38,229 nt of DNA from Gemmatimonadota bacterium (GTDB lineage: Bacteria; Latescibacterota; UBA2968; UBA8231): NCBI GenBank assembly GCA_018673255.1, contig JABHDC010000089.1, forward strand, positions 1 to 38,229, written 5' to 3'. The notes under the pieces are model-generated. The model was not told the origin of the DNA. It saw nothing but the letters and a program-made list of their open reading frames with translations, and made no database searches. Shown here one piece after another: positions 12,501-30,428 of the stretch. The position numbers and the translations under genes are program-made. Numbering within the stretch: position 1 is the stretch's first letter; each line of letters starts with the position of its first letter.

Positions 12501-13070
12501 CTACTCGCTTGCTTCGGTCGTAGCCGAATCCGCGGGCAACAACAGATCCTCAAGGAAGAAGGCCGAGAGTTCGGCCCTGCCACCGAGACCGGATTTGCGG
12601 TAAACCGAAACGGCGTGCTGTCGCACCGTTCTTTCGCTGCGCTCGGTAAGGGCTGCAGTCTGTTTGTGAGAGTAGCCTTTCAGGAGGAACAAGGCCGTTT
12701 CGCGCTCTGTCGGCGTCAGCTGCCATGCGCGCATCTGCATGTCGATCGCCTCGCCAAGCCCCGCCAGATAGGTCTCGGCCCGGCGACGCCAGGCGTCCCG
12801 CTCTTCTCGATGATCATCTAGAGAACGCTCCAGGACAGCCAGATAACGGTATGTCAGCAGCCACCCACGGCCCAGCCAGACCGTAGTCCCCAGGCAAAGA
12901 GTCAGGAAGAGGCCTTCGACAATCATGTGCAGACTGTACCACGTTTCGGGCCCATCCAGGATGAGATCGATCGCGCCGGTGACGGTGATGGCTGCCAGCA
13001 GAAGCATCAGGTAGACCTGAAATGCACCACCGGGTGGGTCTGGAACCCGTCTACTGTCACTATCCGGCAT
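12501..13070 (-). CDS. Membrane-anchored LuxR-type transcriptional regulator
   Basis: This 189-residue protein has two predicted membrane segments (about residues 18-38 and 46-68), a charged, probably coiled-coil linker (LERSLDDHREERDAWRRRAE) and a C-terminal LuxR/GerE helix-turn-helix (about 115-175). The HTH reads LTPTERETALFLLKGYSHKQ followed by ERTVRQHAVSVYRKSGLGGRAEL. There is no receiver or autoinducer domain, so it is probably a one-component regulator sensing a membrane or periplasmic signal. ATG 13070 is chosen because the frame upstream to 13460 is antisense to the DUF2231 gene and has no domain. It is transcribed away from the electron-transfer operon and shares its 147-base promoter region. 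Control of that operon is an inference from position only. Confidence 0.8.
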   Translation of the reverse strand: MPDSDSRRVPDPPGGAFQVYLMLLLAAITVTGAIDLILDGPETWYSLHMIVEGLFLTLCLGTTVWLGRGWLLTYRYLAVLERSLDDHREERDAWRRRAETYLAGLGEAIDMQMRAWQLTPTERETALFLLKGYSHKQTAALTERSERTVRQHAVSVYRKSGLGGRAELSAFFLEDLLLPADSATTEASE

Positions 13071-13123
13071 ATGCCACAGTTTCAGAGAGGAACGGAGAAT
13101 TGCCGCCGGAATATAGCCATCCG

Positions 13124-13135
13124 CGTCAGATGACG
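13124..13135. promoter_or_regulatory. Dyad in the divergent LuxR/operon promoter region
   Basis: CGTCAGATGACG is a perfect 5-bp inverted repeat around GA, flanked by ATCCG on the left and (overlapping) CGGAT on the right, so symmetry extends over about 20 bases. A second short dyad, GGGCC-gggaag-GGCCC, lies nearby at about 13147-13162. Both sit between the divergent regulator (start 13070) and the first operon gene (start 13218), where a LuxR-type dimer would be expected to bind. No clear promoter hexamers were found. Confidence 0.4.
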
Positions 13136-13217
13136 GATACCGGTTGGGCCGGGAAGGGCCCAGATTTCCTGGACGCACAGGTGTGTGAGTGCCCGTCCGC
13201 CACAAAGGAGACACGAC

Positions 13218-13733
13218 ATGGATCTTCCCCTGCACCCGATGGTCGTCCATCTGCCCATCGCCCTGGCAGCGATGCTTCCTCCGGTATTGATTGCCATTCT
13301 CTGGCGCAGACGAGAACGGCCGGGCCCAGAGCGTGAGTGGAGAATCGCGGTTCTGTTGTCGGTGGTTCTCGCGATCAGTGCCTCCATTGCCGTCAACACA
13401 GGTGAGGAAGACGAGGAGATCGTGGAGCATACTGTCTCTGAGTCGGCGTTGGAAATACATGAAGACCGGGCGGATGCCTTCCTCTACCTGGCCTGGCTGG
13501 TGGCCGGTGTCGCCGCCGTGGGGCTAGTTCAGGGATCGACGGGCCGCATCGCGCGCTTTGCGACCGCCGGCTGTAGTATTGTGCTCCTGGTGGCTGCCGT
13601 CCGAGTTGGGCATGCCGGCGCGGAACTCGTCTACCGCCATGGTGCTGCACAGGCTCATCTGGTCGATGGAGCCGCGCGGCTCCGACCACATGCAGGCGAG
13701 GTCAATCATCACGATGACGACGACGATGACTGA
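13218..13733 (+). CDS. DUF2231-type membrane protein with acidic tail
   Basis: This 171-residue inner-membrane protein has four predicted helices at about residues 10-29, 42-58, 88-105 and 113-132. It opens with LHPMVVHLPIALAAM, the histidine-containing signature of DUF2231. Members of that family often sit beside cytochromes or redox enzymes and may bind heme, but their role is unproven. The C-terminus ends HHDDDDDD, a likely soluble metal-binding tail. AAGGAG seven bases upstream fixes the ATG at 13218 over the longer frame from 13185. It is the first gene of the plus-strand electron-transfer cluster, separated from the next gene by 128 bases, so an internal promoter there is possible. Confidence 0.75.
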   Translation: MDLPLHPMVVHLPIALAAMLPPVLIAILWRRRERPGPEREWRIAVLLSVVLAISASIAVNTGEEDEEIVEHTVSESALEIHEDRADAFLYLAWLVAGVAAVGLVQGSTGRIARFATAGCSIVLLVAAVRVGHAGAELVYRHGAAQAHLVDGAARLRPHAGEVNHHDDDDDD

Positions 13734-13861
13734 GTCCCGTCGAGAGGAGCCCATTCAAGGACCCGTGACGGATCTGATCGAGTCGGATGGAGCGACATTG
13801 TCGGCGAGTTGTCTGAAGGTTGTATCGTGTCTGCTCATGACCTGACACACGGAGGCGCACC

Positions 13862-14776
13862 CTGAGGAACATCGAACCATCACCCAGTACCGGTGGCCAC
13901 GGGGTCGACAAGGCACGCCGGAGCACCACGCCGTGGTTGTCTCTCGCCCTGGTGGTGGGCGTTGCAGCAGGCCTGTGGTGGTACGGTGCGGACTACTATC
14001 TGACGCCCCTGGCGTCCCGTCCCGACCATCCGCAGCACGAGGTCCTCAGTTCCACTGGCAGCCTGGGGCATCCCCTCGGATGGGCGGGGATTGCCATGCT
14101 CCTGTTGCTGCTGGCCTACTCGATTCGCAAGCGGGTCAGCTGGCTGGAGCCTCTGGGCGCCCTGGGACATTGGCTGTCTGCCCATGTCTTTCTTGGTCTC
14201 ATGGGGCCGTTGCTGATCACCTTCCACTGCGGTTTCAAGGTGGGGGGCATCGTGTCGATCTCATACTGGAGCATGATGATCACCATGCTCTCCGGTATCT
14301 TCGGCCGTTACATCTACGTGCAGATTCCGTCCAGTGTCATCGGTGGCCGGCAGTCGTTGGCGACACTGACCGAAGAGTCGAACCAGCTGACGCAGGGGCT
14401 GCGTCAACTCCTTGGTCCGCGGGCCGACGACATTCTGGCTGATGAAGTCAGCTGGCGTCGAGATGTGGGCGGCTGGCAGGCGATCTCCATCCTGCTGCTG
14501 GACGACCTGCGGCGACCGCTGCTGCGCTGGCGATTGCGGCGGCGCCTACGCTCCGATTCGAGTCAGGTCGGCACACTGGGGCGTGCCGAGATTCGTCGTA
14601 TCCTGGCACTGATGGAACAGCGACACCTGTTACGACGTCGAACCTCTGCTGCAGAGGCGATGGAGCGCATCTTCCACTACTGGCACGTCCTGCATCGGCC
14701 TTTCGTCTACATCATGTTCCTCATTGCCGCTATTCACGTTGGCGTCGCATGGTGGCTGGGGTACACGGGTTGGTAG
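13862..14776 (+). CDS. Cytochrome-b-like membrane protein, apparent CTG start
   Basis: This roughly 304-residue protein has five predicted membrane helices. Histidines face the membrane in LSAHVFLGLMGPLLITFHCGF and in YWHVLHRPFVYIMFLIAAIH, a spacing suited to bis-histidine heme b as in ferric-reductase or di-heme cytochrome b proteins. A cytoplasmic domain of about 110 residues lies between helices four and five. GGAGG at 13851-13855 is followed after six bases by CTG, and this frame gives a sensible hydrophilic N-terminus. The only common start in the open frame is a TTG at 13937, which would begin at the edge of the first helix and has no Shine-Dalgarno. It ends two bases before the oxidoreductase start. 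Likely job: passing electrons from that enzyme or quinol across the inner membrane. Confidence 0.72.
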   Translation: MRNIEPSPSTGGHGVDKARRSTTPWLSLALVVGVAAGLWWYGADYYLTPLASRPDHPQHEVLSSTGSLGHPLGWAGIAMLLLLLAYSIRKRVSWLEPLGALGHWLSAHVFLGLMGPLLITFHCGFKVGGIVSISYWSMMITMLSGIFGRYIYVQIPSSVIGGRQSLATLTEESNQLTQGLRQLLGPRADDILADEVSWRRDVGGWQAISILLLDDLRRPLLRWRLRRRLRSDSSQVGTLGRAEIRRILALMEQRHLLRRRTSAAEAMERIFHYWHVLHRPFVYIMFLIAAIHVGVAWWLGYTGW

Positions 14777-14778
14777 CG

Positions 14779-16098
14779 ATGGACACCCTGATCATTCTCG
14801 CCATCTTCGCCGGCCTCTTCCTGCTGTTCGTGCTTCCCTATGTCCTGCGAGCCCGGCGGCAGGAGCGGCACAATGCCGAACGTCTCAAGGCTTCAGAGGC
14901 GGCAGGGTTGAACGAACCACCGAGTCTTCATCCCCTCGTTGATCCGTCTATCTGTCTGGGCAGCGGGGCATGTGTGGCTGCCTGTCCCGAGGGTGACATC
15001 CTGGGGCTGATCAACAACCGTCCCGCCTTGCTGTCCGCCTCGCGGTGCGTGGGGCATGGGCAATGCGCCGCCGCCTGCCCGGTGCAGGCGATCACGCTGG
15101 TCTTCGGCACCGAGCGTCGCGGTGTAGACATCCCACACGTGCAGGGAGACTTCGAGACCAATGTGCCTGGCCTGTTCATTGCCGGCGAACTGGGGGGCAT
15201 GGGATTGATCCGCAACGCTCTGCGGCAGGGAGCGCAAGCCGTACAAGGAATCGTTGCGACAAGTCGAGTGCTGGCCCCGGTTCCCGAGGACGCACTCGAC
15301 GTGCTGGTCGTCGGCGCCGGCCCGGCGGGGCTCTCAGCAGGTCTGGAGGCCAAGAGACATGAATTGCGCCATGTCGTGATCGAGCAGGAACAGCCGGGTG
15401 GGGCGGTGCGTCACTACCCGCGACAGAAGCTGGTCATGACCGAGCCCATGCAGATCCCGTTGTACGGACCCGTCGATCTGCGACAGGCGAGCAAGGAGGA
15501 TCTGCTGGCACTGTGGGACAAGGTCATCGAGAAGACCGGGTTACGAGTCAGTTGCGGCGAGCGACTCGTCTCGCTGGAGCGCGATGCTGATGACTTGTGG
15601 CAGGCGACGACGACGACGGCTACCTACCGTACACGTGCTGTCGTGCTGGCCATCGGTCGGCGGGGCACGCCGCGGCGACTGGGTATCCCCGGAGAGGATC
15701 TCGACAAGGTGGCCTACCGCCTGCTGGAGCCCGAGCAATTCGTCGATAGAGATATCACCGTCGTTGGCGGCGGTAACAGTGCGGCGGAGGTGGCCGGGGC
15801 CCTGGCCATGCAGGAACTGGGTAACCGCGTCCACCTGCTCCATCGCGGGGCCGCCCTGGGAAGTGCGAATGAGGCCAATCGCCAGCTACTGGATACGCGT
15901 GCCGAGGAAGGTCGCCTGACAATCCTGCTCGAATCTCAGATCACACACATCCATGCCGATCGGATCGACATCGATGTGGCGGGTCAGGCTCGGGAACTGC
16001 CGAACGACTATGTCTTCGTCTGTGTCGGTGGACAGTTGCCTGTGGCATTCCTCAAAGACTGCGGGATTCATATTGAGCGGAAGTTCGGTGAGGCTTGA
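14779..16098 (+). CDS. Membrane-anchored FAD/NAD(P) oxidoreductase with ferredoxin-like domain
   Basis: This 439-residue protein has an N-terminal membrane anchor (about residues 3-22), a ferredoxin-like domain (55-105) and a thioredoxin-reductase-like domain with two dinucleotide motifs: GAGPAG (179-184, FAD) and GGGNSA (330-335, NAD(P)H). GTERRGVDIPH and FIAGELGGMGLI are conserved linkers of this family. Each ferredoxin motif has three cysteines (C59, C65, C69 and C90, C96, C100). The usual second cysteine is Ser62 in one and His93 in the other. I recall such substitutions as typical of this protein family, so the clusters may still form with non-cysteine ligands. It would feed NAD(P)H electrons to the adjacent cytochrome-b-like protein. 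The start at 14779 avoids overlapping the previous gene. Confidence 0.85.
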   Translation: MDTLIILAIFAGLFLLFVLPYVLRARRQERHNAERLKASEAAGLNEPPSLHPLVDPSICLGSGACVAACPEGDILGLINNRPALLSASRCVGHGQCAAACPVQAITLVFGTERRGVDIPHVQGDFETNVPGLFIAGELGGMGLIRNALRQGAQAVQGIVATSRVLAPVPEDALDVLVVGAGPAGLSAGLEAKRHELRHVVIEQEQPGGAVRHYPRQKLVMTEPMQIPLYGPVDLRQASKEDLLALWDKVIEKTGLRVSCGERLVSLERDADDLWQATTTTATYRTRAVVLAIGRRGTPRRLGIPGEDLDKVAYRLLEPEQFVDRDITVVGGGNSAAEVAGALAMQELGNRVHLLHRGAALGSANEANRQLLDTRAEEGRLTILLESQITHIHADRIDIDVAGQARELPNDYVFVCVGGQLPVAFLKDCGIHIERKFGEA

Positions 16099-16114
16099 AC
16101 GTGCCACGAGCGGG

Positions 16115-17683
16115 ATGGTGACGATGTCACGAGTGGGCCGGCTGGTCGCGCGGTATCTGGCCGTGTGGCATCTGGCGTGCGCTGTCGCGACGGGGGCGCA
16201 ACTGCTGTCACCGGGTGATCTCGCCAGACCCCACGCGGACCTGGAAGGTCTGACGAACTGCACCAAGTGCCACGCGGCCGGTAAACAGGTGCCCCAGGAG
16301 CGTTGCCTGGCGTGTCATGAAGGGCTGGCTACGCGTCTGAAGGAAGGCGCCGGTTACCACGCACAGGTCCTCGGTGACTGCGTCGACTGCCACAGCGACC
16401 ATCGGGGTCTCGACTACGAGATGATCCGCTGGGACTCTCTGAGCTTCGATCATGATTCGACCGGCTACCGTTTGGAGAACAAACATGCCGAACTGGCGTG
16501 CGCGAAATGCCACACGAAGCCCAGGACCTATCTCGGACTGAAGTCAGACTGCCTGTCCTGTCACACGGATGAACACCGTGCCCAGTTCAGCGAAGATTGT
16601 CTCACGTGTCACAGTATGGAGAGCTGGAAGCCGGCCACCGGTTTCGCCCACGACAAGGCCCGCTACGCTCTCGAAGGGCGTCACGCGCAGGTCGCGTGTG
16701 AAAGCTGCCACGTCGGCGAAGCTGACGACACGGATGCCACGTTCAAACGCTACCGACCTGTGGCATTTGCGGCCTGTGTCGACTGTCACAGCGACGAACA
16801 CGATGGGCAGTTTGATCCGCCAACATGCACGGCCTGCCATGACCTGAATGGTTTCAAGCCCACGCGATTCGACCACGACGACAGCCGCTTCGCACTTGTG
16901 GGAAAGCACCGGACTGTGACCTGCAGTGCCTGCCATCAACCCCTGGTCGAGGCTGATGGCGACACGAGTGTCACCTATCGCCCCCTGCCCTTCTCCCGTT
17001 GTGCCGACTGCCACGCCGATGTGCACGAAGGGCAGTTCAAGGAAGACTGCGTCGCCTGCCACAGCGAAACCGGCTGGCAGAAGTCACCCATCGACCACGA
17101 GGAGACACGCTACCCACTGCGTGGCAAACACAGGTTGGTGGCCTGCGACAACTGTCACGGCCCCAGCCCCGGTGCAGCGGCGGGCGCTGTCGCCCTGTTT
17201 CGCGGGCTTCCCTTCGCCAAGTGTGGAGATTGTCATACCGATACCCACGCCGGGCAGTTTGCGCAGGACTGTGCCGACTGCCATCGCGTGACGGGTTGGC
17301 CCATCGAGAGTTTCGATCACGGGAGAACACGGTATGTCCTGAGTGGGAAACACGTTACCGTCACCTGTGAGAGTTGCCATCGCCTGGAACAGGTGTCTCA
17401 GGCGGCGCCCATTCGCCGCTGGCGTGATTTCCCCTTCGCCGCATGCAATGACTGTCATCCTGATGGGCACGCCGCCCAGTTCAGTTCCGACTGTGTTGTC
17501 TGTCACAGCCTGGAGGGGTTCAGACCCTCGATCTTTGGACATGAGCAGGCACAGTTCGGTCTCGATGGCGCACACGTACGGGTGCCCTGTGTCGAGTGTC
17601 ACAAGGCTTTCCAGGCGGTCGATGGCGTAGAACACATCCGTTACCGCCCCCTGTCTGGCGACTGTGCTTCCTGCCATGGCTAA
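16115..17683 (+). CDS. Periplasmic 20-heme cytochrome c
   Basis: I count 20 CxxCH heme-attachment motifs in about 522 residues. They are arranged in recurring modules of roughly 80 residues: a FDHD-x-T-x-Y-x-L-x-GKH segment, a VxCxxCH, a CxDCHxDxHxGQF pair and a DCxxCHxxxGW segment. This is a cytochrome c3/c7-like chain able to make a long heme wire. The N-terminus (MSRVGRLVARYLAVWHLACAV) is a Sec signal peptide with no lipobox, so the mature protein should be periplasmic. Start 16115 is uncertain by three codons (ATG also at 16124). It begins 17 bases after the oxidoreductase and overlaps the next frame at its end. It probably bridges the inner-membrane module to the outer membrane. Confidence 0.9.
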   Translation: MVTMSRVGRLVARYLAVWHLACAVATGAQLLSPGDLARPHADLEGLTNCTKCHAAGKQVPQERCLACHEGLATRLKEGAGYHAQVLGDCVDCHSDHRGLDYEMIRWDSLSFDHDSTGYRLENKHAELACAKCHTKPRTYLGLKSDCLSCHTDEHRAQFSEDCLTCHSMESWKPATGFAHDKARYALEGRHAQVACESCHVGEADDTDATFKRYRPVAFAACVDCHSDEHDGQFDPPTCTACHDLNGFKPTRFDHDDSRFALVGKHRTVTCSACHQPLVEADGDTSVTYRPLPFSRCADCHADVHEGQFKEDCVACHSETGWQKSPIDHEETRYPLRGKHRLVACDNCHGPSPGAAAGAVALFRGLPFAKCGDCHTDTHAGQFAQDCADCHRVTGWPIESFDHGRTRYVLSGKHVTVTCESCHRLEQVSQAAPIRRWRDFPFAACNDCHPDGHAAQFSSDCVVCHSLEGFRPSIFGHEQAQFGLDGAHVRVPCVECHKAFQAVDGVEHIRYRPLSGDCASCHG

Positions 17684-17690
17684 GGCGCAC

Positions 17691-18449
17691 ATGACGCGGA
17701 TCCTGACCTTTCTGCTGGCCCTGATTCTCCAACTGGCATGGGTGACGGCTGTCCTGGCGGCACCACCCCGGTCGCCTCACGGTGAACTGGAACAGGCCTG
17801 CACGCAGTGTCACACGACCAGCAGCTGGCAGGAGATCCATTTCGATCACGAGAGGACATCATTTTCGCTCGAAGGGCAACACGCGAAGGCGACCTGTATC
17901 GCCTGCCACCGTCTCGATGATTTCAGCAGTGCTGGCAACGATTGTCTCACCTGTCACACGGATGGTCATGAAGGAGCGCTGGAATCGGATTGTGCGGTCT
18001 GCCATGATCCTGCCGACTGGACAGCGGCTGGCTTCGATCACGAGATGACGACCTTCCCGCTGTGGGGTGCCCATGGCGCCACAGCGTGTGTCCAATGCCA
18101 TGCCAACGAAGTGACCTGGCAATTCAACGTCGCGCCGGAGACGTGCTACGATTGCCATCGAGCCGAATTCGGGCAGGCCTCGGTGACGGTCCATCTCACG
18201 GCCGGTCCCGACTGCGAATCGTGTCATACGCTGGATCGCTGGCAGGGAGGGCACGATCCCATGTGGTTCGAGGTTCGCGGTGGCAAACACGAGGCCGACT
18301 GCAGTCGTTGCCACAAACGGGCACCTGACTATCTGTCCTACACCTGCGCTGACTGCCACAAGTTCGAGCTGGATGTCGAGGAACACGTCGGTCTGGATGC
18401 CGACGATGCACGGTGTCTCGACTGTCATGCTGGCGGCTTCGATGACTGA
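17691..18449 (+). CDS. Periplasmic 10-heme cytochrome c
   Basis: This 252-residue protein has a signal peptide (MTRILTFLLALILQLAWVTA, cleavage near VLAAPP) and ten CxxCH motifs in about 220 mature residues, a density comparable to MtrA-type decaheme cytochromes. Histidines in FDHERTSF and GQHAKATC give likely distal ligands. The ATG at 17691 has AAGG five bases upstream; in-frame ATGs at 17664 and 17676 overlap the previous gene. It directly precedes the outer-membrane barrel gene, whose ATG overlaps its stop. By analogy with porin-cytochrome conduits, a decaheme protein next to a barrel is the candidate for the subunit inserted into the barrel. That analogy is inference; no close sequence match to MtrA is claimed. 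Confidence 0.88.
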   Translation: MTRILTFLLALILQLAWVTAVLAAPPRSPHGELEQACTQCHTTSSWQEIHFDHERTSFSLEGQHAKATCIACHRLDDFSSAGNDCLTCHTDGHEGALESDCAVCHDPADWTAAGFDHEMTTFPLWGAHGATACVQCHANEVTWQFNVAPETCYDCHRAEFGQASVTVHLTAGPDCESCHTLDRWQGGHDPMWFEVRGGKHEADCSRCHKRAPDYLSYTCADCHKFELDVEEHVGLDADDARCLDCHAGGFDD

Positions 18450-19683
18450 TCGGCTCATGCGACGATGGCTGATTCTGCTGCTGATCGCGGCGGTGCCGCA
18501 GGGGGTCTGTGCCGCTGTGGATGGCCGCGTCTCCTTTGGCTGGCGCTGGCTCAGTGATGCCAGCAGTCTCGGCACAGATTCACAGACGGCGACCACACGA
18601 CTGAGACTGCACAGCCAGGAGTGGGGAAGGCAGCGCCTGCGATTGCAGCTCGAAGTCGACGACTACAGGGCATTGGATACGCGGCATGCCCGGGACGAGT
18701 CCGGTGCACTCTACACGGCCTACGACGATCGCCTTCGCCTGCGTCGTGTCGGTCTGGATGTGGATGTGGCCGGTGGGCGACTGCAGTTGGGGCGTCATCG
18801 GCCGCAGATGCGCGTCATCGGTGCGGGAGATACGGATGGAGCCAGCTGGTCGGGGTCACGTGGCAATCTGCGCGCTGCCGTGGCTGGCGGCCGGCGTGTG
18901 GCTTTCTGGAGATCTGACACGGGCCCCGGGAGTGGTCCCGCTCAATGGGGTGGTGAACTCGCCTGGACGGCAGCGCCCTCTGCTCAGCTGGCTATGGGCA
19001 GCTGGCACGATGAAGCCATCGACGGGACCAGTCGCTGGCGACTCGGTGCCAATGGTCGCTTCCAGATGCCGGGAGAGATCGAGCTGACCGCGCATGCTGA
19101 GACCGAGCCTGGTGAGAAGCGATTCCTGTGGCGCATCCACAGCGGCTGGCGGGGGGGAGGCTGGCGTCTTCGGGCCGACATCGGCGGTCAACGACTGTCG
19201 TTGTTTCCCGTCGCCGATCGCGCCGATTCCTTGCACTACGGTGGCCGCACCAGGAGCCTGGGTCTGATGGCCGCTCGTCGATGGGGCAGGAATGTCGACG
19301 TGAGCCTGCGCCTGCGCTCACGTTACGGCGAACGCAGACAACGCTCAGAAATGGTCACTGTGCGCTGGTCCAGACTATGGCGAGGCACGGCCCTGCGATT
19401 CCAGTTGGCCGACAGTTGGAGTCGCTGGCGTCAGATGGAGCGTGCGGACCTGGTGTTGAGCAATCGCCTGGGCAGACGCTGGCACGTGAGTGCCGGCGTC
19501 AACGCCACGGCCTTCCAATGGCGTAACTCCCGTGAGCCCGAGTGGGGAACGCGTTTCCGGCCCCACCTGGGTCTACGGGGTCGATTCGGCAGTTGGGAGG
19601 CGCGACTGCGAGTGTCAGAGCAGGTCGATGAATTCACTCATCTGCGCACGCAGGTCTATGCGGGGATCAGCAGCCAGCTTTGA
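18442..19683 (+). CDS. Outer-membrane beta-barrel of a porin-cytochrome conduit
   Basis: This 413-residue protein has a signal peptide (RRWLILLLIAAVPQGVCAA) followed by a run of alternating amphipathic strands rich in Trp, Arg and Gly (RLRLHSQEWGRQRLRLQLEVDD; DVSLRLRSRYGERR), diagnostic of a beta barrel. There is no CxxCH. It ends SSQL rather than the usual terminal aromatic residue. MtrB/PioB barrels are typically 650-850 residues, so at about 390 mature residues this is a clearly shorter barrel. Its place between the 10-heme cytochrome (8-base overlap) and the 18-heme lipoprotein (4-base overlap) is what points to a conduit sheath. On sequence alone it could be any porin. Confidence 0.72.
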   Translation: MTDRLMRRWLILLLIAAVPQGVCAAVDGRVSFGWRWLSDASSLGTDSQTATTRLRLHSQEWGRQRLRLQLEVDDYRALDTRHARDESGALYTAYDDRLRLRRVGLDVDVAGGRLQLGRHRPQMRVIGAGDTDGASWSGSRGNLRAAVAGGRRVAFWRSDTGPGSGPAQWGGELAWTAAPSAQLAMGSWHDEAIDGTSRWRLGANGRFQMPGEIELTAHAETEPGEKRFLWRIHSGWRGGGWRLRADIGGQRLSLFPVADRADSLHYGGRTRSLGLMAARRWGRNVDVSLRLRSRYGERRQRSEMVTVRWSRLWRGTALRFQLADSWSRWRQMERADLVLSNRLGRRWHVSAGVNATAFQWRNSREPEWGTRFRPHLGLRGRFGSWEARLRVSEQVDEFTHLRTQVYAGISSQL

Positions 19684-21107
19684 GAACGATCAGGCACATC
19701 CGAGTCCTCCTGGGGGCCGCGCTTCTGGTGGCGGGTATCGTGACCGGCTGTCAGGATACTTCACCGAATCCGGCCACGTGGACGGTGGGTGAACTGCACG
19801 TGGATGTGGGACTGGCGGGGGGGCATCAATCTCTGGATTGCGCCGGATGTCACGGCGAAGGATCGCTCAAACCCGCGCTCGCAGCGTGTGAAGACTGCCA
19901 TCTCGAATCGTACGAGCAGGTGACCGATCCGAATCATGTTGAGCGCGGGTTTCCCACGCAATGCGCAGAGTGTCACACCTCTATGGCCTGGCGTCCGGCA
20001 CGCTTCGACCATGAGGCCTTCGGATTTGTCCTGCTCGGAGCCCACGCAGATCTGGTGTGTGCCGCCTGTCATCCCGCCGGGCAGGCATATTCGGGCCTGC
20101 CCACCGACTGCTTCGGCTGTCATGAGGCAGACTTCGATGACGCTGCTGACCCCGATCATGAGGCGCTGCAGCTGTCGCATGAATGCACCGACTGTCACGA
20201 CACAGGTGCCTGGTCACCGGCGACCTTCGACCACGACCTGACGGACTTCGTTCTCACGGGTGCCCACGTCGAAACCGTATGCAGTGCCTGTCACACCCCG
20301 GAGGTGCTGGCCGAGGCCCCCACCGACTGCTACGCCTGTCATGAGGCGGACTTCGATGACGCCGAGCCCGATCACGGGGCGCTGGAGCTGTCTCATGAGT
20401 GCACGGACTGTCACGACACGCGGGATTGGTTACCGGCGACCTTCGACCACGACCTGACGGACTTCGCCCTCACCGGTGCCCACGTCGAAACCGAATGCAG
20501 TGCCTGCCACACGCCGGAAGTCCTGGCCGAAGCCCCCACGGATTGCTTCGGCTGCCATGAAGCGGACTTCGATGACGCTGCTGATCCCGACCATGTGGCG
20601 CTGCAGCTGTCGCATGAATGCACCGACTGTCACGACACGCGGGACTGGTCACCGGCCACCTTCAACCACGACCTGACGACATTCGCCCTTCGCGGGGCGC
20701 ACGTCGAGGTGACATGCGTCACCTGCCACGCTGAAGGTTTCTCGGGAACAGCCACGGACTGTATCGCCTGCCATGCGGAGGATGAACCGCGTGATCACTT
20801 TGGCCCGGACTGCTCAGCCTGTCACACCGATGCTGCCTGGGAGCCATCGACCTTCGACCATGAACCAAGCTTCCCTCTGCAGCGGGGAAACCACCGGGAC
20901 TATCGAAACGATTGCGCCGCCTGTCATACCGATCTTGCTGACTACGAGGTCTTCACCTGCACCAACTGTCATGATGGTGAACACGAGCGCCGAGAGACCG
21001 ACGACGATCACGATGACGTAAGCGACTACCGCTACGACTCCATCGCCTGTTACGATTGCCATCCTCGTGGAGATGAAGATGACGCAGAGGATGGCGACGA
21101 TGATTGA
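19680..21107 (+). CDS. 18-heme cytochrome c lipoprotein
   Basis: This 475-residue protein has 18 CxxCH motifs and a lipoprotein signal peptide: basic MRTIRHIR, hydrophobic core, then the lipobox IVTGC with Cys at about residue 24. It is therefore lipid-anchored, and as last gene of the conduit operon it is the likely surface electron-exit protein. Residues about 142-360 are three near-copies of a roughly 72-residue, three-heme module. The C-terminal 40 residues are very acidic (DDDHDD, DEDDAEDGDDD) around the last heme site, perhaps binding cations or mineral surfaces. The start is TTG within TTGA, overlapping the barrel stop, with no Shine-Dalgarno; coupling is likely. Surface exposure is inferred; a periplasm-facing orientation is not excluded. 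Confidence 0.88.
   Translation: MRTIRHIRVLLGAALLVAGIVTGCQDTSPNPATWTVGELHVDVGLAGGHQSLDCAGCHGEGSLKPALAACEDCHLESYEQVTDPNHVERGFPTQCAECHTSMAWRPARFDHEAFGFVLLGAHADLVCAACHPAGQAYSGLPTDCFGCHEADFDDAADPDHEALQLSHECTDCHDTGAWSPATFDHDLTDFVLTGAHVETVCSACHTPEVLAEAPTDCYACHEADFDDAEPDHGALELSHECTDCHDTRDWLPATFDHDLTDFALTGAHVETECSACHTPEVLAEAPTDCFGCHEADFDDAADPDHVALQLSHECTDCHDTRDWSPATFNHDLTTFALRGAHVEVTCVTCHAEGFSGTATDCIACHAEDEPRDHFGPDCSACHTDAAWEPSTFDHEPSFPLQRGNHRDYRNDCAACHTDLADYEVFTCTNCHDGEHERRETDDDHDDVSDYRYDSIACYDCHPRGDEDDAEDGDDD
20103..20753 (+). repeat. Three tandem units (219, 216 and about 216 bp) inside the 18-heme gene
   Basis: Units begin at 20103, 20322 and 20538, each coding for TDC-x-x-CHEADFDDA through an SHECTDCHDT segment to a GAHVE-x-x-C-x-x-CH segment. 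Units one and three are almost identical at DNA level across the stretch coding FDDAADPDH to CHD. Units one and two agree closely from FDHDLTDF to LAEAPTDC. Unit three diverges in its last third. Such similarity implies recent duplication, or homogenisation by recombination. Confidence 0.85.
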
Positions 21108-24811: not shown

Positions 24812-24869
24812 TTCTCAGATCTCTCCTGATGTGTAACGGGTAACATACACAACTTGCCCGGTGAGACAT

Positions 24870-24978
24870 GTGATTCACGGAGGGTCGGTAAATGGGACTC
24901 GTATGTCCCCTATGACAGGCTCTACAAATCCTACATATACAGACTATCAGAGAGAAAGATCCTTTTATAGTGAATCAC
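24870..24978. promoter_or_regulatory. Paired 9-bp dyads flanking a possible promoter
   Basis: GTGATTCAC at 24870-24878 and GTGAATCAC at 24970-24978 are reverse complements, each itself a quasi-palindrome (GTGA-N-TCAC), with starts exactly 100 bases apart. They resemble half-size CRP/FNR-type sites. Between them lies the candidate promoter ATGACA (24912-24917), 18-base spacer, TATACA (24936-24941). One dyad is upstream of it and one just downstream of the expected start near 24948, an arrangement suited to operator looping or repression. Confidence 0.4.
24912..24941 (+). promoter_or_regulatory. Candidate sigma-70-type promoter of the heme-domain gene
   Basis: ATGACA and TATACA with an 18-base spacer resemble a -35/-10 pair within the most AT-rich stretch of this region. 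The implied transcript starts near 24948 and has a leader of about 123 bases. A second possible -10, TATAGT at 24966-24971, has no matching -35. FCB-group bacteria can use non-standard consensus sequences, so this is tentative. Confidence 0.35.
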
Positions 24979-25024
24979 GTGCATGGCAGGATCTTTGCAG
25001 AGTAATGCAACATCTGCCCAGATG
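24955..25024 (+). promoter_or_regulatory. Structured 5' leader with three consecutive hairpins
   Basis: Three inverted repeats follow each other almost without gap: AAAGATCC/GGATCTTT (24955-24962 with 24989-24996, eight perfect pairs), TTGCA/TGCAA (24995-24999 with 25006-25010, sharing two bases with the first), and CATCTG-CC-CAGATG (25011-25024). The coding start is 47 bases further on, behind a GAGGG Shine-Dalgarno. Such a leader may stabilise a highly expressed mRNA or act as a regulatory element. No known riboswitch was recognised. Confidence 0.45.
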
Positions 25025-25070
25025 GGGTGGGAAGAACATGTCACAGCACTCGGGAGAGGGTGAGGGCACT

Positions 25071-26150
25071 ATGAACAAGAAGTCGACGGCGATCGGGGTT
25101 GCGATCACGATGCTGACGGCAGTCGCCATGTGGACGGCAGCCATTGCAGGACCAGCGGAGATCGTTGATCTCATGGCCAAGTCTGTGGGCGCGGGTCCCA
25201 ACGTTGACGGTATTGCGGATGGTATGTGGGACGGCGCTGAGAGCGTCACGGTGGCTGTCCTTGGCGGCGCCAATGCCGGCAGCCATGATGTAACCATCAA
25301 GTCCGTGTATACGGCCACCGATGTCTATTTCCTGGTCGAGTGGGATGATCCGACGCACAGTCTGCGTCGCTTCCCCTGGCAGAAGCAGGACGATGGTACG
25401 TGGCTGCACTTGAATGACGGCAGCGATCACGACGAGACCGAATTCTACGAAGACAAGTTTGCCTTCATCTGGCCCATCGGTACGATCGCTGGTTTTGCCG
25501 ACGCCGGTTGCATGGTCACCTGTCACGTCGGTGAGCCTAACAAGTCCTATGGCAACAAGTACAATGCCAATGCCGGTGAACTCGGTGACATCTGGCACTG
25601 GAAGTCCGTGCGTTCCGGTTCCATTGGCTACATCGACGATCAGTGGCTCGATGACACACGCTGGTCCGAAGACACGGGCAGCGCCGGTCGTCATTCCGAT
25701 GCGAAGACCGTCGGTGGTTACGTCAACAATGTGAACGAAGCTGGTGACGGTCCGGCCTTCATGGGCCCGCAGGGCGCCGATGGTCCTTACTGGATTCGTG
25801 ACGAAGAGAAAGTGGCCTTCGTCGACAACTTCGAAGCTGGCGACGAGATCCCCGGAATCATCGTGAAGCGTCCTGATGGCGATCGTGGTCAGATCGACGG
25901 CGTCGCTGAGTATGCCGGTGGCAAGTGGACGCTCGAGATCCGTCGCGCCCTGGTCACGGGCAGTGAGACGGATGTCAACTTTGCCGACCTCGGCGCGTCG
26001 TATCCCTTCGGCGTCGCAGTCTTCGACAACGCCCAGGTTCGCCACGCCTTCCAGACCAGTGTGACGCACCTGAGTTTCGAGCCGCGGGCGACGTTGGTCG
26101 CAGATCGTAGCTGGGGCGAGATCAAGGCCGAGATCGAGGATCTCCACTAG
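25071..26150 (+). CDS. Secreted ethylbenzene-dehydrogenase-type heme-domain protein
   Basis: This 359-residue protein has a Sec signal peptide (MNKKSTAIGVAITMLTAVAM, cleavage near AIA-GPA) and an ethylbenzene-dehydrogenase/DMSO-reductase-type heme-binding domain, a beta-sandwich that carries heme b in the gamma subunits of such enzymes. Supporting segments are VYTATDVYFLVEWDDPTHS, ELGDIWHWKSVR and KWTLEIRRAL. The only cysteines are in C147-MVT-C151-H152, a CxxxCH rather than CxxCH, which might still attach a c-type heme. No molybdoenzyme genes are nearby. Codon choice favours GGT, CGT and GTC more than the neighbours do, suggesting high expression. ATG 25071 is chosen for its signal peptide and Shine-Dalgarno; the frame is open from 24861. 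A periplasmic electron carrier is the best guess. Confidence 0.8.
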   Translation: MNKKSTAIGVAITMLTAVAMWTAAIAGPAEIVDLMAKSVGAGPNVDGIADGMWDGAESVTVAVLGGANAGSHDVTIKSVYTATDVYFLVEWDDPTHSLRRFPWQKQDDGTWLHLNDGSDHDETEFYEDKFAFIWPIGTIAGFADAGCMVTCHVGEPNKSYGNKYNANAGELGDIWHWKSVRSGSIGYIDDQWLDDTRWSEDTGSAGRHSDAKTVGGYVNNVNEAGDGPAFMGPQGADGPYWIRDEEKVAFVDNFEAGDEIPGIIVKRPDGDRGQIDGVAEYAGGKWTLEIRRALVTGSETDVNFADLGASYPFGVAVFDNAQVRHAFQTSVTHLSFEPRATLVADRSWGEIKAEIEDLH

Positions 26151-26194: not shown

Positions 26195-26233
26195 GGGGCT
26201 GGGTGGCTGTATGCCATCCAGCCCCTTTATTTT
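26195..26233 (+). terminator. Rho-independent terminator
   Basis: GGGGCTGGGTGGC (26195-26207) pairs over 13 positions, one of them G-U, with GCCATCCAGCCCC (26213-26225) around the loop TGTAT. TTTATTTT follows. It lies 45 bases after the stop of the heme-domain gene, and its T-tract overlaps the stop codon of the convergent UroD-like gene. Confidence 0.92.
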
Positions 26234-27249
26234 GTCGCCTGCATCCCCTCATCGAGGGCGATGAGGTAGTTGGCTACAGGCAGGTAGTCGGTGAGCGAGT
26301 TGCCTGTGCCCAGGGCGTAATGTCCGTCGGCGAAACAGGACTCCACGACGCTGCGCGTGTAGTGCCTGATCTGATCTTCCGTCCCGCGACAGAGCAGATC
26401 CACATCCAGCCCGCCCAGTGGCGTCATACGGTTGCCATACTGGCGCTTGAAGTCTCCCACCGGCAGGATCACGTCCTCGAAGGAGTGCTTGGCGTCGACG
26501 CCGCAGGCGGCGATGTCGTCGTAGATCTCAGCCAGATTTCCGCAGGAATGCAGGATGAAGGGTTTCCCCTGCATGTGAGCGGCATCGGCCATATCGCGAT
26601 AGATCGGCAACACCCACTCCCGTAGCCGATCCGGCGGCAGGAAGGTCGCCGTCTTGAATCCCAGGTCATCGCCCTGTCGAAGGGCGCCGATGCCATCCAT
26701 CGTGGCCAGCTGGCGCACGGCACTGGTGTGAATCTGCCGGATCCTGTCGAACATGTCCGCAACCAGTTGGGGATCGTCGGCCAGGGCATAGGACAGGCCC
26801 ATGACACCCATCATCTGACTCACCCACTCATAGGGGCCGGCGCAGACACCGCCGACGATCTTCACACCATCCGGCAGCAATCCGGCGACGATCTCAAAGG
26901 GTTCGAAGTCGATCGGTGACGCCAGATCCGGCCACTCGTAGGCTTCAAATTCCGCCCGATTTCGGATAATGGCGTGGGCCTCACTCTCGTGAGACAGGCC
27001 GTCCCCACCACTGTCTCCCATTCTCAACTTTGGCGGGATCTCCATGGGGATGCAGTCGAATCCCAACCCCAGTCAGAAGTCGACGAAATGCCGCCACCGC
27101 TCGATGCCACGGGTATTGGTGTAATCGACCCCCAGGCGGGCACTGATGAATCCGGCACTGGCGATATGTTCGTAGAAGGGAAGGTGAGTCGGTGTGCCCT
27201 GGCGGGTCAGGACCTTCAGGAACTGGTCGAAGTCTGGTTGGCGAGACAT
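26227..27249 (-). pseudogene. UroD-like protein gene interrupted by an in-frame TGA
   Basis: One continuous frame encodes a uroporphyrinogen-decarboxylase-superfamily protein of about 340 codons, but codon TGA at 27075-27073 cuts it after about 58 residues (..RHFVDF-stop-LGLGFDCIP..). Both sides belong to the same protein: the N-terminal part has FYEHIASAGFISARLG, and the rest has KIVGGVCAGPYEW, ILHSCGNLAEIYDD and TPLGGLDVDLL, all family landmarks in register. ATG 27249 overlaps the stop of the serine hydrolase (TAATG), so it was built as a second operon gene. A TTG eight bases beyond the stop could restart translation, but without a proper Shine-Dalgarno and with the fold split. A sequencing error or recent nonsense mutation are the main readings. 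Members act in methyl transfer or decarboxylation. Confidence 0.75.
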
Positions 27250-28358
27250 TAGCAATCCTCTGGTCGAATCGCACTCAAGACCCGGCGGATGAAACCATCG
27301 TAGTGATCGCCGGACAACCAGCGAGATACGATGACCAGATCATGTTCAGGGTCGCTGAAGATCCTGTTCGACCCGGCGCCGGAATGATAGGAGCAACTGG
27401 CCGGCGCACTGGGCACGTTGCCCTGATCGGTATTCAGCGTCCAGTTCATGAAGCCGAAGTCCGACCCGAGACCGGTGGGCGTCGTGGCCATCCTGATCCA
27501 CTCATCGGACAGGATCTGCCGGTCCTGCCAGCGTCCCCGCCGCAGCGACAGATAACCGAAGCGGGCCTGATCGCGGGCGCTGATCCACATGCCGCCACCC
27601 CAGTGCCCGCCACCGCTGACCGAATGCAGCCGTTGCCCCTCCACATCGACCCAGGAATTCCCATAGCCGTGCCACTGCCATGTGTCGGTGGCACCGATCG
27701 GTCCCATCACGTGCTCACGCAATACGTCGGGCAGTGGCCGCTTCCACACTCGCAGCAGTGACAGGGCGAATCGATTGACGCGCACATCGTTGTATTCGAA
27801 GCGTGTACCCGGTTCGACGGGCTCCAGCAACCGATCGTCGGGATTGCCCGCCGCATAGTGCTTCTCCCAGAGCGTGCCTTCCCACTCACTCGTCTGCCGT
27901 AGCGAGTGGTCCCAGGTGATGTGCCGATTGTGATCGGAATCGTAGCCGCCATCTGCCACGTAGTCCGCGACGGGGTCGTTCAGATCGCGGATCAGACCCC
28001 GATCCCAGGCCAGACCGGCTACGGTGGACAGGAAACTCTTCGAGATACTGAAGGTCATGTCCACGCGCTCAGGTTCGCCCCATTCGCACACGATGTAGCC
28101 GTGTCGCAGAATGACACCCGACGCTTGGCCGCGATCCTGCATCGGTCCCAGAATCCTTGCGTCGTCGTGCGCTTTGCCGCCATTACTGGCGTCCCACTCG
28201 GCTCGCAGGTCGCGTCCGAACCCCTCGTGGGCCGGATCGCGAGCGAAGTCGACAGCCATTTCCAGCGTTGCACTGTCCATGCCGACATCGGCAGGTGCAC
28301 GTTGTTCCCAATCGTCACTGCTGTCGGGGTAATACAGGCGCTGAGTCTCTGATGGCAT
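27249..28358 (-). CDS. Serine hydrolase, beta-lactamase/penicillin-binding-protein-like
   Basis: This 369-residue protein matches the class C beta-lactamase/esterase family. The SxxK nucleophile motif is in MTFSISKSFLSTVAGLAWDRG (SISK, about residue 100). The YxN-type motif is in FEYNDVRVN (about 195). The third motif is HSG in YHSGAGSNRIF near the C-terminus. GGGMWISARDQARFGYL is also typical. No signal peptide is apparent from ATG 28358, so a cytoplasmic esterase or amidase is possible; true beta-lactamases are exported. The open frame to 28721 runs antisense into the next gene and was rejected. Its stop overlaps the start of the interrupted UroD-like gene. Confidence 0.85.
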   Translation of the reverse strand: MPSETQRLYYPDSSDDWEQRAPADVGMDSATLEMAVDFARDPAHEGFGRDLRAEWDASNGGKAHDDARILGPMQDRGQASGVILRHGYIVCEWGEPERVDMTFSISKSFLSTVAGLAWDRGLIRDLNDPVADYVADGGYDSDHNRHITWDHSLRQTSEWEGTLWEKHYAAGNPDDRLLEPVEPGTRFEYNDVRVNRFALSLLRVWKRPLPDVLREHVMGPIGATDTWQWHGYGNSWVDVEGQRLHSVSGGGHWGGGMWISARDQARFGYLSLRRGRWQDRQILSDEWIRMATTPTGLGSDFGFMNWTLNTDQGNVPSAPASCSYHSGAGSNRIFSDPEHDLVIVSRWLSGDHYDGFIRRVLSAIRPEDC

Positions 28359-28512
28359 CAGGATTCCCGTGTTCTTGTCAGTGGAGAGCACCGATGAATG
28401 GCCCGCGCGGGCACAAGCGGGTTGCCCGCCGCCGAAATGGGGTGTTACTTCGCCGAGGATGGTGGTGCCGCAGGGTGCCGCATCGCGTCGCCTCATCACA
28501 GGGGAACGAGTC

Positions 28513-29175
28513 ATGCGAAAGCACATCGCAGGTTGGATCGCCCTCTTCACGCTGGCTCTCAGCCTGCCGTCTCCCACGTCAGCCCAGATGTGGGGTGAAT
28601 CGTTGAATGAAGCACCTCTGACTCTGGTCCCCTCCGAGATGACCCTCGAAGAATACAGGGACATGAATCGGCGACTATCCGTCGGTCTGGCGCTACGGGT
28701 GATCCCCATCCCCGGGATCATGCATTACTACGCCGGCGAACCCGAGACGGGCAGGAAACTGTTGCGTCGGAGTCTGCTGGGTGTGGCGGCGATGATCGGG
28801 GGTGCGATCCTGAGCGATCCCGATGAAGGTGACTTTCCTAAGTCCGACTTTGATGTCATGATCCTCAATGAAGGCAACAAGAAGCGGGAGCGTCGTTACG
28901 AACAGATTCCCGTCGAGATCGAGGACGGCAACACCCAGTACAGACTGCGCGAACTGCATCGCAAGGGTGAACTCATGCCGGGTGGGCCGCTGATCCTGCT
29001 GGGCGCCGTGACGGTCGGCTACAGCCTCATCTATGACTTCTACAAGGGCATCCGCGTCATCGAAGAGAAGCGGGATCGGGTTCGCTACAAGTATGGTCGG
29101 CAGCTGGGTCTGCAGATGAGTATGGGATCCACCCGTCGTGCAGCACCAGGCATGGCGCTCACTTACAGCTTCTAG
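28513..29175 (+). CDS. Secreted/envelope protein of unknown function
   Basis: This 220-residue protein has a good Sec signal peptide (MRKHIAGWIALFTLALSLPS, cleavage near TSA-QMW). The mature part contains IPIPGIMHYYAGEPETGRK followed by a hydrophobic helix (SLLGVAAMIGGAIL). This resembles the PG-x-G-x-x-Y-x-G-E-x-x-x-G motif of small TM2/DUF5683-like envelope proteins. A second hydrophobic segment (PLILLGAVTVGYSLIYDF) follows a charged stretch. It ends TYSF with a terminal aromatic, as many outer-membrane proteins do, though it is too small and too helical for a clear barrel. It is divergent from the serine hydrolase and converges with the UroD-like gene. No specific function is assigned. The frame upstream of 28513 has no signal peptide and was not used. 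Confidence 0.65.
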   Translation: MRKHIAGWIALFTLALSLPSPTSAQMWGESLNEAPLTLVPSEMTLEEYRDMNRRLSVGLALRVIPIPGIMHYYAGEPETGRKLLRRSLLGVAAMIGGAILSDPDEGDFPKSDFDVMILNEGNKKRERRYEQIPVEIEDGNTQYRLRELHRKGELMPGGPLILLGAVTVGYSLIYDFYKGIRVIEEKRDRVRYKYGRQLGLQMSMGSTRRAAPGMALTYSF

Positions 29176-29207
29176 TGTCCCCGAGCCTTAGAATCTCGTA
29201 GCCGGAG

Positions 29208-30428
29208 CTATCGATAGCTGTAGTTTCGCGCGGTCTCGTAGAGGGCCAGGATATTCTCCACCGGCACATCGGCCTGAATATTGTGGATTGGATTGACGAC
29301 GTAGCCGCCTCCCGGAGCGTAGATATCGAGGCATTCCTGCGCTTCACGCCGCACCTCGTCCGCTGTCCCGAAGGGGAAGGTGCCCTGCGTGTTGATGCCG
29401 CCACCCCAGAACACGAGTCGGTCGCCGTAGGTCTTCTTCATCCATTCGCGGTCCATGCCGGCTGCCCCCCACTGCACCGGGTTGAGGCAGTCGACACCGG
29501 CATCTGCTATATAGGGAATGAGCGCCGGAATCGACCCACAACTGTGAATCCAGACTTTCACATTCTCGAATTCGTGCACGGCATCGCAGACGATCTTCCA
29601 GGCCGGGGCCATCACCTCGCCGAATAGTTCCGGGCGGAAGCACTCGCGGTCCTGGGTGCCGTAGTCGGCGCCACTGAGTACGACGACATCGATGTAGTCG
29701 CCCATCTCGGCAAGATACTGACGGGCCCGTTGTGCACTGGCCTCAGCCTGGGCGAGCATGAATTCCTGGCAGTGTGACTGATCCAGCGACATCTTCATGC
29801 CCCACTGATACAGGCCACCGTATCCACCGGACAGATTGAAGGGTGGCGTGACGACGAGGGCGCGATCGGTGGACTCGAAGAGTGCCTTCGCTTTGGCTAC
29901 CTCGCGTTCCATGTAGTCGGTCTCGATCGCACCCGGCAGGTCCCAGTCATCCGGTTCGATATGGGGGACCTCAAAGGTGTCGGTGAGATTCGCGACGCGG
30001 ACGGCGTCGAAGTAACGGCCGCCTTTCGGCATGCGTGCGACCGGTTCTTTCCAGTCGGGCCCATCACCTACCAGCAAAGAGCCATCCTCGGTGACTTCCG
30101 GCCGGAATCCAGAGGGCACCTGGAAGGTCTGACCATCCCAGAAGGTGTAGTCCTTCCAGCCATTGCGAGACAGGCCGTATTGCATCTGGTCTGCAGGGAC
30201 CATGACGAAATCGCAACCGAGTGCATCCAGGACCGGCTCCTCGACTTCGGCCAGCATCTGAAACAGATCGTATACGCGCGTCGATCCAGACTCGACGCCA
30301 AGGGCAGCCTTGAGAGCACCATAGGTCCAGGCAACGGTACCCGACATACGGGTGGCGCCCAGGTCAATGGCAGGGCGATCGGCTTCCTGGTGGTTGAGAA
30401 TCTTGCGTACACGTTCGCGCGAGGTCAT
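29208..30428 (-). CDS. Uroporphyrinogen decarboxylase-superfamily protein
   Basis: This 406-residue protein opens MTSRERVRKILNHQEADRPAIDLG, the classical start of UroD-like proteins (including methylcobamide:CoM methyltransferase relatives) that are not heme-synthesis HemE. WIHSCGSIPALIPYIADAGVDCLNPVQ (about residues 300-326) is the hallmark HSCG strand, where methyltransferases place zinc ligands. NPIHNIQADVPVENI closes the barrel. HemE is about 350 residues and has arginine/aspartate active-site motifs not seen here, so a role in methyl transfer or sugar-related metabolism is more likely. AAGGATG precedes the ATG. It follows the GHL10-type gene by 72 bases on the same strand. A second, disrupted member lies at 26227-27249. 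Confidence 0.85.
   Translation of the reverse strand: MTSRERVRKILNHQEADRPAIDLGATRMSGTVAWTYGALKAALGVESGSTRVYDLFQMLAEVEEPVLDALGCDFVMVPADQMQYGLSRNGWKDYTFWDGQTFQVPSGFRPEVTEDGSLLVGDGPDWKEPVARMPKGGRYFDAVRVANLTDTFEVPHIEPDDWDLPGAIETDYMEREVAKAKALFESTDRALVVTPPFNLSGGYGGLYQWGMKMSLDQSHCQEFMLAQAEASAQRARQYLAEMGDYIDVVVLSGADYGTQDRECFRPELFGEVMAPAWKIVCDAVHEFENVKVWIHSCGSIPALIPYIADAGVDCLNPVQWGAAGMDREWMKKTYGDRLVFWGGGINTQGTFPFGTADEVRREAQECLDIYAPGGGYVVNPIHNIQADVPVENILALYETARNYSYR

Follow-up and report, generated by a model that had tools for sequence, protein, structure and literature searches.

A PCC3-type porin-cytochrome gene cluster with a candidate cytoplasmic redox partner in a Latescibacterota genome

The stretch of DNA analysed here (the window) covers positions 1 to 38,229 of the forward strand of contig JABHDC010000089.1, 38,229 nucleotides in all, from an assembly named Gemmatimonadota bacterium and placed by GTDB in Latescibacterota (GCA_018673255.1). 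Between 13218 and 21107 it carries seven plus-strand open reading frames (ORFs), which the original prediction described as one operon for an electron conduit leading from NAD(P)H to the cell surface, and different from known systems. The system is real, beyond chance, and is a variant of PCC3, a candidate porin-cytochrome conduit of four genes in which an inner-membrane protein (IMP) is linked to quinones (He et al. 2017, PMC5566968). All seven ORFs are present, as follows:

13218..13733, + strand: DUF2231 membrane protein with a His/Asp-rich tail (Pfam PF09990, E 2.7e-8)
13937..14776, + strand: inner-membrane protein of the PCC3 IMP family (two WX3HX13H motifs; alignment with 20 relatives)
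14779..16098 (alternative start 14749), + strand: membrane-anchored Fe-S/FAD/NAD(P) oxidoreductase, the flavoprotein of this text (Pfam Pyr_redox_3 and Fer4_10)
16124..17683, + strand: 20-heme cytochrome of the PCC3 periplasmic family (20 CxxCH motifs; similarity to the 21-heme protein of Amphritea atlantica)
17691..18449, + strand: 10-heme cytochrome, candidate occupant of the barrel (10 CxxCH motifs; alignment with second cytochromes)
18457..19683 (alternative start 18442), + strand: outer-membrane barrel with 22 predicted strands (AlphaFold2 model)
19680..21107, + strand: 18-heme cytochrome with a lipobox-like start, candidate surface end (18 CxxCH motifs; VTGC; relatives in the related locus L084)

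The unit supported by the analysis consists of the six tightly packed genes at 13937-21107 (+), whose intergenic gaps, with the starts as given, are 2, 25, 7, 7 and -4 bp. Of the proposed seven-gene operon, only the DUF2231 gene falls away: its product is probably outside the core of the conduit, because its stop lies 203 bp upstream of the first usual IMP start codon and because no match was found in related loci, either at E<=1e-3 by BLAST among the ORFs of the 80 loci described below or at E<=1e-2 in L084 and L085. The N-terminus of the IMP gene is uncertain, since the open frame extends back to 13841, the earliest ATG, GTG or TTG stands at 13937 (with the stop at 14776), and in the alignment the closest relative begins further upstream than 13937. 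The predicted total of 48 heme sites was borne out by counting: the 20, 10 and 18 CxxCH motifs compare with means of 0.26, 0.14 and 0.21 and maxima of 4, 2 and 3 in 1000 composition shuffles per protein. The three cytochromes have 25-26 residues per heme, and their further histidines (22, 11 and 23, respectively) would be enough for bis-His ligation. Beyond these 48 c hemes, two b hemes are predicted in the IMP.

For comparison, genome contigs were scanned with an alignment of the flavoprotein, and the best 80 of at least 549 confirmed stretches were retained; these loci are thus chosen by the flavoprotein. An IMP-like ORF is present in 64 of them, a cytochrome with at least four CxxCH motifs in 63, and both in 60. 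The set includes Amphritea atlantica DSM 18887 (L065), cited in the literature for PCC3 cytochromes of 63 and 21 hemes (PMC5566968), and ORFs with these same heme numbers were found in its locus. In 56 sets, window included, the distances among the IMP, the flavoprotein and the 20-heme protein are correlated (Mantel r 0.84-0.86, with 0 of 999 permutations as high), a correlation that shared organism history alone could explain.

Assignment to PCC3 relies on the family and motifs of the IMP, the family of the ~21-heme periplasmic cytochrome, the barrel, a large second cytochrome and the clustering of the genes (PMC5566968). PCC3 IMPs are proteins of ~300 aa with five membrane helices, an SGxxG motif and two WX3HX13H motifs, and the window protein presents five hydrophobic peaks together with W79-x3-H83-x13-H97, S119GIFG123 and W249-x3-H253-x13-H267. 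Such motifs have been reported for the IMPs of PCC3 and PCC4, and likened to the way in which ferric reductases and cytochrome b ligate their hemes (PMC5566968). Counting the window, 64 IMP-like ORFs reach 200 aa, and 63 of them have two WX3HX13H motifs with GxxGR between them, the lone exception being a 229 aa ORF in L075; the serine of SGxxG is not universal, being absent for example in L004 and L005. Based on the positive loops, the first His of each pair (His83 and His253) would face the cytoplasm and the second (His97 and His267) the periplasm. The window IMP has no Pfam match; among 21 IMPs, weak matches were obtained to Ferric_reduct in seven (best E 0.0011) and to DUF4405 in seven (best E 1.7e-4).

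The 20-heme protein resembles the 21-heme protein of Amphritea atlantica (33% over 513 residues) and corresponds to the ~21-heme periplasmic cytochrome of PCC3, with a periplasmic location presumed; it is probably long enough to cross the periplasm. Its relatives mostly carry a PG motif, usually SPG or MPG, ahead of the first heme, which among the rows listed is absent from L046 and L078, which look like outer cytochromes, and from L069, whose start is cut. Since the membrane and 20-heme proteins belong to PCC3 families, the system is not outside those already described, and the claim that it differs from known ones had to be given up, the more so as the flavoprotein is usual with that IMP in three lineages. 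It nevertheless departs from the published description (PMC5566968) in four respects: a flavoprotein stands in the gene string, outside the four-gene set; the outer cytochrome is apparently split in two; the barrel has 22 predicted strands against up to 42; and the host belongs to Latescibacterota instead of the Alpha-, Beta- and Gammaproteobacteria.

With respect to the outer half, the 10-heme protein aligns to the N-terminus of the second cytochrome in all eight FCB-type loci chosen, and the order of 10-heme, barrel and 18-heme genes is repeated in L084. The 18-heme protein has relatives in L084 at 56% and 49%, and a weak similarity (23% over 579 residues, both proteins being repetitive) to the 63-heme protein of Amphritea. 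It seems, and this is an apparently new point, that the outer cytochrome has been split into the 10-heme protein and the 18-heme lipoprotein, with a small barrel gene between them. The lipoprotein assignment comes from a Cys that follows a hydrophobic segment, its VTGC setting resembling a lipobox when read by eye. The two L084 relatives have a Cys at the matching place, again by eye, outside the strict lipobox pattern, which among the second cytochromes listed matches only one, in L017, taken as chance; since the pattern fails in the relatives, lipidation may be special to the window. These two L084 relatives are adjacent ORFs (L084:6455-9440, with 12 and 21 CxxCH motifs), likely a tandem duplication. 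A condensed arrangement was observed in L004, L005, L019 and L080, records named Nitrospirae, Desulfuromonadales and Deltaproteobacteria, in which one locus holds the IMP, one cytochrome of 35-57 hemes, a barrel of 415-443 aa and the flavoprotein.

The predicted barrel is convincing. An earlier model built from six sequences was poor (pLDDT 51.8), whereas AlphaFold2 with an 11-sequence alignment gave 22 strands with a mean pLDDT of 84.0 and a pTM of 0.73, placing a barrel in the cluster as in PCC3. The best VIA-align matches are TonB-dependent receptors, which have 22 strands and a plug inside; in the light of these matches its size would in principle allow an internal partner, and the 10-heme protein is a candidate for that place. 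MtrB-type barrels are not among the 50 matches listed by Foldseek or by VIA-align, which excludes nothing. No Pfam or NCBIfam family was matched at E<=0.1, the presence of an MtrB model in those libraries not having been checked.

The membrane-anchored flavoprotein begins with a membrane helix followed by positive charges, then come two Fer4 motifs, a displaced C-terminal FAD element and the FAD and NAD(P) domains (Pyr_redox_3, E 5.4e-37; Fer4_10, E 2.7e-10). Its profile matches the YpdA-family Bdr 7a7b over profile positions 172-435. A piece of 60 residues, located after the Fer4 motifs and before the FAD domain, matches residues 240-290 of the 309 of thioredoxin reductase 5nii (E 0.0015); as a C-terminal part of thioredoxin reductase is thereby found ahead of the FAD domain, the flavin fold appears to be circularly permuted. 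In the second Fe-S motif (15046-15081) all 80 relatives have His as the second ligand residue, and this invariance suggests a Cys3His cluster; the same position of the first motif is Cys in 45, Ser in 26 (the window has Ser), Ala in 5 and Thr in 4. The oxidoreductase of the original prediction thus stands as a cytoplasm-facing flavoprotein inside the gene string, with its use of NAD(P)H putative. As for the surroundings of the flavoprotein in the related loci, the neighbouring genes give no clue to direction: in several proteobacterial loci they resemble, by eye, Sel1-repeat proteins, and in L012 and L049 genes similar by eye to those of cytochrome c maturation stand between the IMP and the flavoprotein, with ORFs of similar sizes in L009 and L068.

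The co-occurrence of the two proteins was followed in three lineages, named here after the record titles of their centre loci, with presence defined as E<=1e-25 for the IMP and E<=1e-80 for the flavoprotein. In the family of a Gallionella metagenome-assembled genome (MAG; 150 genomes), 61 genomes have the IMP, 63 the flavoprotein and 60 both, G156 having the IMP only and G081 (partial), G094 and G178 the flavoprotein only. The class of an Ignavibacteriae MAG (197 genomes; the G007 class) gave 48, 49 and 47, respectively, with the IMP alone in G349 and the flavoprotein alone in G338 (partial) and G368. Fisher tests returned p 5e-37 for the family and 8e-42 for the class, values that ignore shared ancestry. 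As a control, MtoA-type decahemes above the TIGR03508 cut-off occur in 38 of the 150 genomes, of which 20 also have the IMP (p 0.09) and 19 the flavoprotein (p 0.26). In the order of a Caulobacterales MAG (200 genomes) the IMP was found in 22 genomes, seven of which have the flavoprotein: all seven IMPs at E<=1.3e-69 are paired with it and none of the 15 at E 4.3e-33 or weaker, a split set after the gap in E values had been seen; these 15 presumably represent other IMP families. It therefore appears, as a second point that seems new, that the flavoprotein tracks the PCC3 membrane protein and is usual with it in these three lineages. A "4Fe-4S ferredoxin" cluster present in 41 of 87 genomes in Table 1 of PMC10734462 was considered as a possible counterpart and dropped, the ten Gallionella-type and related flavoproteins checked having no CxxCH.

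Taken together, these data point to a porin-cytochrome conduit of the PCC3 type that has its own dedicated redox partner in the cytoplasm, a reading that we regard as reasonably probable, and the predicted built-in partner is likely right. The cofactors, electron path, direction and role, as well as the place of the 10-heme protein in the barrel and the surface exposure, are what we infer. Electrons would pass from cytoplasmic NAD(P)H to the FAD and then to the two Fe-S clusters of the flavoprotein, and from these to two b hemes of the five-helix IMP, one near each face; the 20-heme protein, spanning the periplasm, would take them into the 22-strand barrel, where the 10-heme protein would hand them on to the 18-heme lipoprotein at the surface. 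The path may be reversible, with an exchange with NAD(P)(H) resembling that in NADPH oxidases or ferric reductases. Electrons leaving NAD(P)H for the outside would run downhill and inward flow would need energy, the sequence being compatible with either direction. A wider proposal, held only tentatively, is that the PCC3 class as a whole is a quinone-bypassing conduit, in which an NADPH oxidase-like pair of flavoprotein and IMP links NAD(P)(H) to extracellular electron transfer, the flavoprotein being an overlooked fifth subunit in several phyla.

Several observations weigh against the conduit with a dedicated cytoplasmic partner. Thirteen of the 80 flavoprotein loci lack both an IMP and a multiheme cytochrome within the stretch covered, which exceeds 10 kb in five and is shorter in eight. 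The flavoprotein occurs without the IMP in 3 of 63, 2 of 49 and 1 of 8 genomes of the three lineages (the last being G497), and in a related phylum it reaches E<=1e-80 in only 3 of 64 genomes. Cytochrome homologues consistently lacking the barrel and the oxidoreductase had been named as evidence that would count against the conduit; relatives of the 20-heme protein mostly lie beside the IMP and the flavoprotein, but L085, a contig of 6.7 kb, has the IMP, flavoprotein and 20-heme genes without a barrel or outer cytochromes. Moreover, profile comparison did not establish homology between the window barrel and other PCC3-type porins, namely those of Nitrospirae/Deltaproteobacteria-named, FCB-type and proteobacterial loci (hhalign probabilities <=15.7%, best pairwise E 0.0017), while the first two groups match each other at a probability of 99% (E 3.6e-19) and the FCB-type and proteobacterial porins only weakly (29%, E 5.9e-4). 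The IMP may still exchange electrons with quinones. Finally, both PCC3 clusters of Sideroxydans ES-1 are down-regulated on Fe(II) (PMC8788666), but in strain CL21 expression of the copy 2 IMP gene increases with iron oxidation (PMC12442390).

Exchange of the PCC3 IMP with the quinone pool, the published hypothesis for this protein (PMC5566968), would leave the flavoprotein as an accessory, for instance in cytochrome maturation, repair or redox control. We consider this rather unlikely in view of the near-constant pairing of the two proteins in three lineages and of a membrane anchor and two Fe-S motifs that fit electron transfer at the membrane. The gene arrangement cuts both ways. In the Gallionella-MAG family, the flavoprotein gene is found at most 5 kb from an IMP gene in 54 of 65 copies and all 54 are divergent from it, so that these pairs are not in one transcript, which favours the accessory role. 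In the Ignavibacteriae-MAG class, 38 of the 49 copies follow an IMP gene on the same strand, at up to 1 kb in 21, at up to 10 kb in a further 16 and at a greater distance in one; seven are divergent and four are on contigs without an IMP. The IMP-first order there speaks for partnership, although in 16 of the 37 such pairs no more than 10 kb apart the spacing exceeds 1 kb. An inward conduit, with electrons of an outside donor driven to NAD(P)+ through the same proteins, would suit the several relatives named as iron oxidisers, such as Gallionella, and the published PCC3 model, in which an outside donor feeds the quinone pool (PMC5566968); transfer from a typical outside donor to NAD(P)+ would be uphill, however, and there is no energy-coupling subunit among the six genes, and we judge it unlikely. 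The lack of provable homology of the barrel to other PCC3-type porins and the L085 contig would also be expected if there were no trans-envelope conduit at all and the barrel were an unrelated porin, with the cytochromes serving an electron store or a reductase in the periplasm. This is quite improbable given that the 10-heme, barrel and 18-heme genes follow one another with gaps of only 7 and -4 bp, in an order found again in L084.

The conduit with a cytoplasmic partner can be compared with several known systems. In NADPH oxidases and ferric reductases, a cytoplasmic FAD/NAD(P) module feeds two b hemes ligated by paired His in two helices. The window set is alike in combining an FAD/NAD(P) module with a membrane part predicted to hold two b hemes, but differs in having these as separate polypeptides, with Fe-S clusters and a flavin module of the thioredoxin reductase type, and only some of the IMPs match in sequence, weakly. 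MtrCAB and MtoAB, in which a decaheme protein, a barrel and a surface lipoprotein cytochrome work together, are a functional analogue of the outer part, to which the window adds the 20-heme protein, the IMP and the flavoprotein; none of the three window cytochromes reaches the TIGR03508 cut-off for MtrA/DmsE-type decahemes (192.2 bits, against 20.6 for the 10-heme, 40.8 for the 20-heme and 20.3 for the 18-heme protein). PCC4 has a functionally similar IMP beside another redox gene (in subgroup II an Fe-S gene, pfam13247), and further IMP-cytochrome clusters also carry other redox genes beside the IMP, so that a redox partner in this position has precedent; PCC4 differs in having three periplasmic and no extracellular cytochromes, and the PCC3 and PCC4 IMPs are without significant overall sequence homology (PMC5566968). 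Porin-cytochrome clusters of Ignavibacteria, found with MtrB, OmbB and Ext-type porin models, also show large cytochromes adjoining a barrel in FCB bacteria, and in the same study a Burkholderiales cluster that resembles PCC3 encodes 24- and 49-heme proteins ahead of an OmbB-like porin; the parts of that article consulted do not mention a flavoprotein or IMP (PMC7399161). Likewise, no flavoprotein or NAD(P) partner of PCC3 is named in the main-text parts covered of PMC5566968, PMC10734462, PMC8788666 (for NADPH only), PMC12442390, PMC12016527 and PMC13386937.

Other genes of the window lie around the six-gene unit. A divergent ORF at 12501-13460 (-) combines a hydrophobic region with a LuxR-type helix-turn-helix (GerE E 8.9e-5, 22.5 bits, against a Pfam cut-off of 23.5) and is a possible regulator of the conduit genes. 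At 24861-26150 (+), 3.8 kb downstream of the last cytochrome gene, a protein with an ethylbenzene-dehydrogenase heme domain is encoded (PF09459, E 1.3e-42), and 26227-30428 (-) encodes a beta-lactamase-fold protein between two URO-D-family proteins (PF01208, E 2.6e-19 and 5.9e-18).

The published PCC3 has been called functionally unverified (PMC12442390), with its connection to metabolism unproved, the published model stopping at the quinone pool. A partner that follows the IMP in three lineages leads to a specific prediction, namely NAD(P)H-dependent reduction of the periplasmic cytochrome, and the flavoprotein could serve as a gene marker for complete PCC3 systems. The window itself shows a rearranged outer half, with a compact barrel and an apparently split cytochrome, in a Latescibacterota host. 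The most useful result is the probable built-in cytoplasmic partner, which seems to extend to the PCC3 of other lineages.

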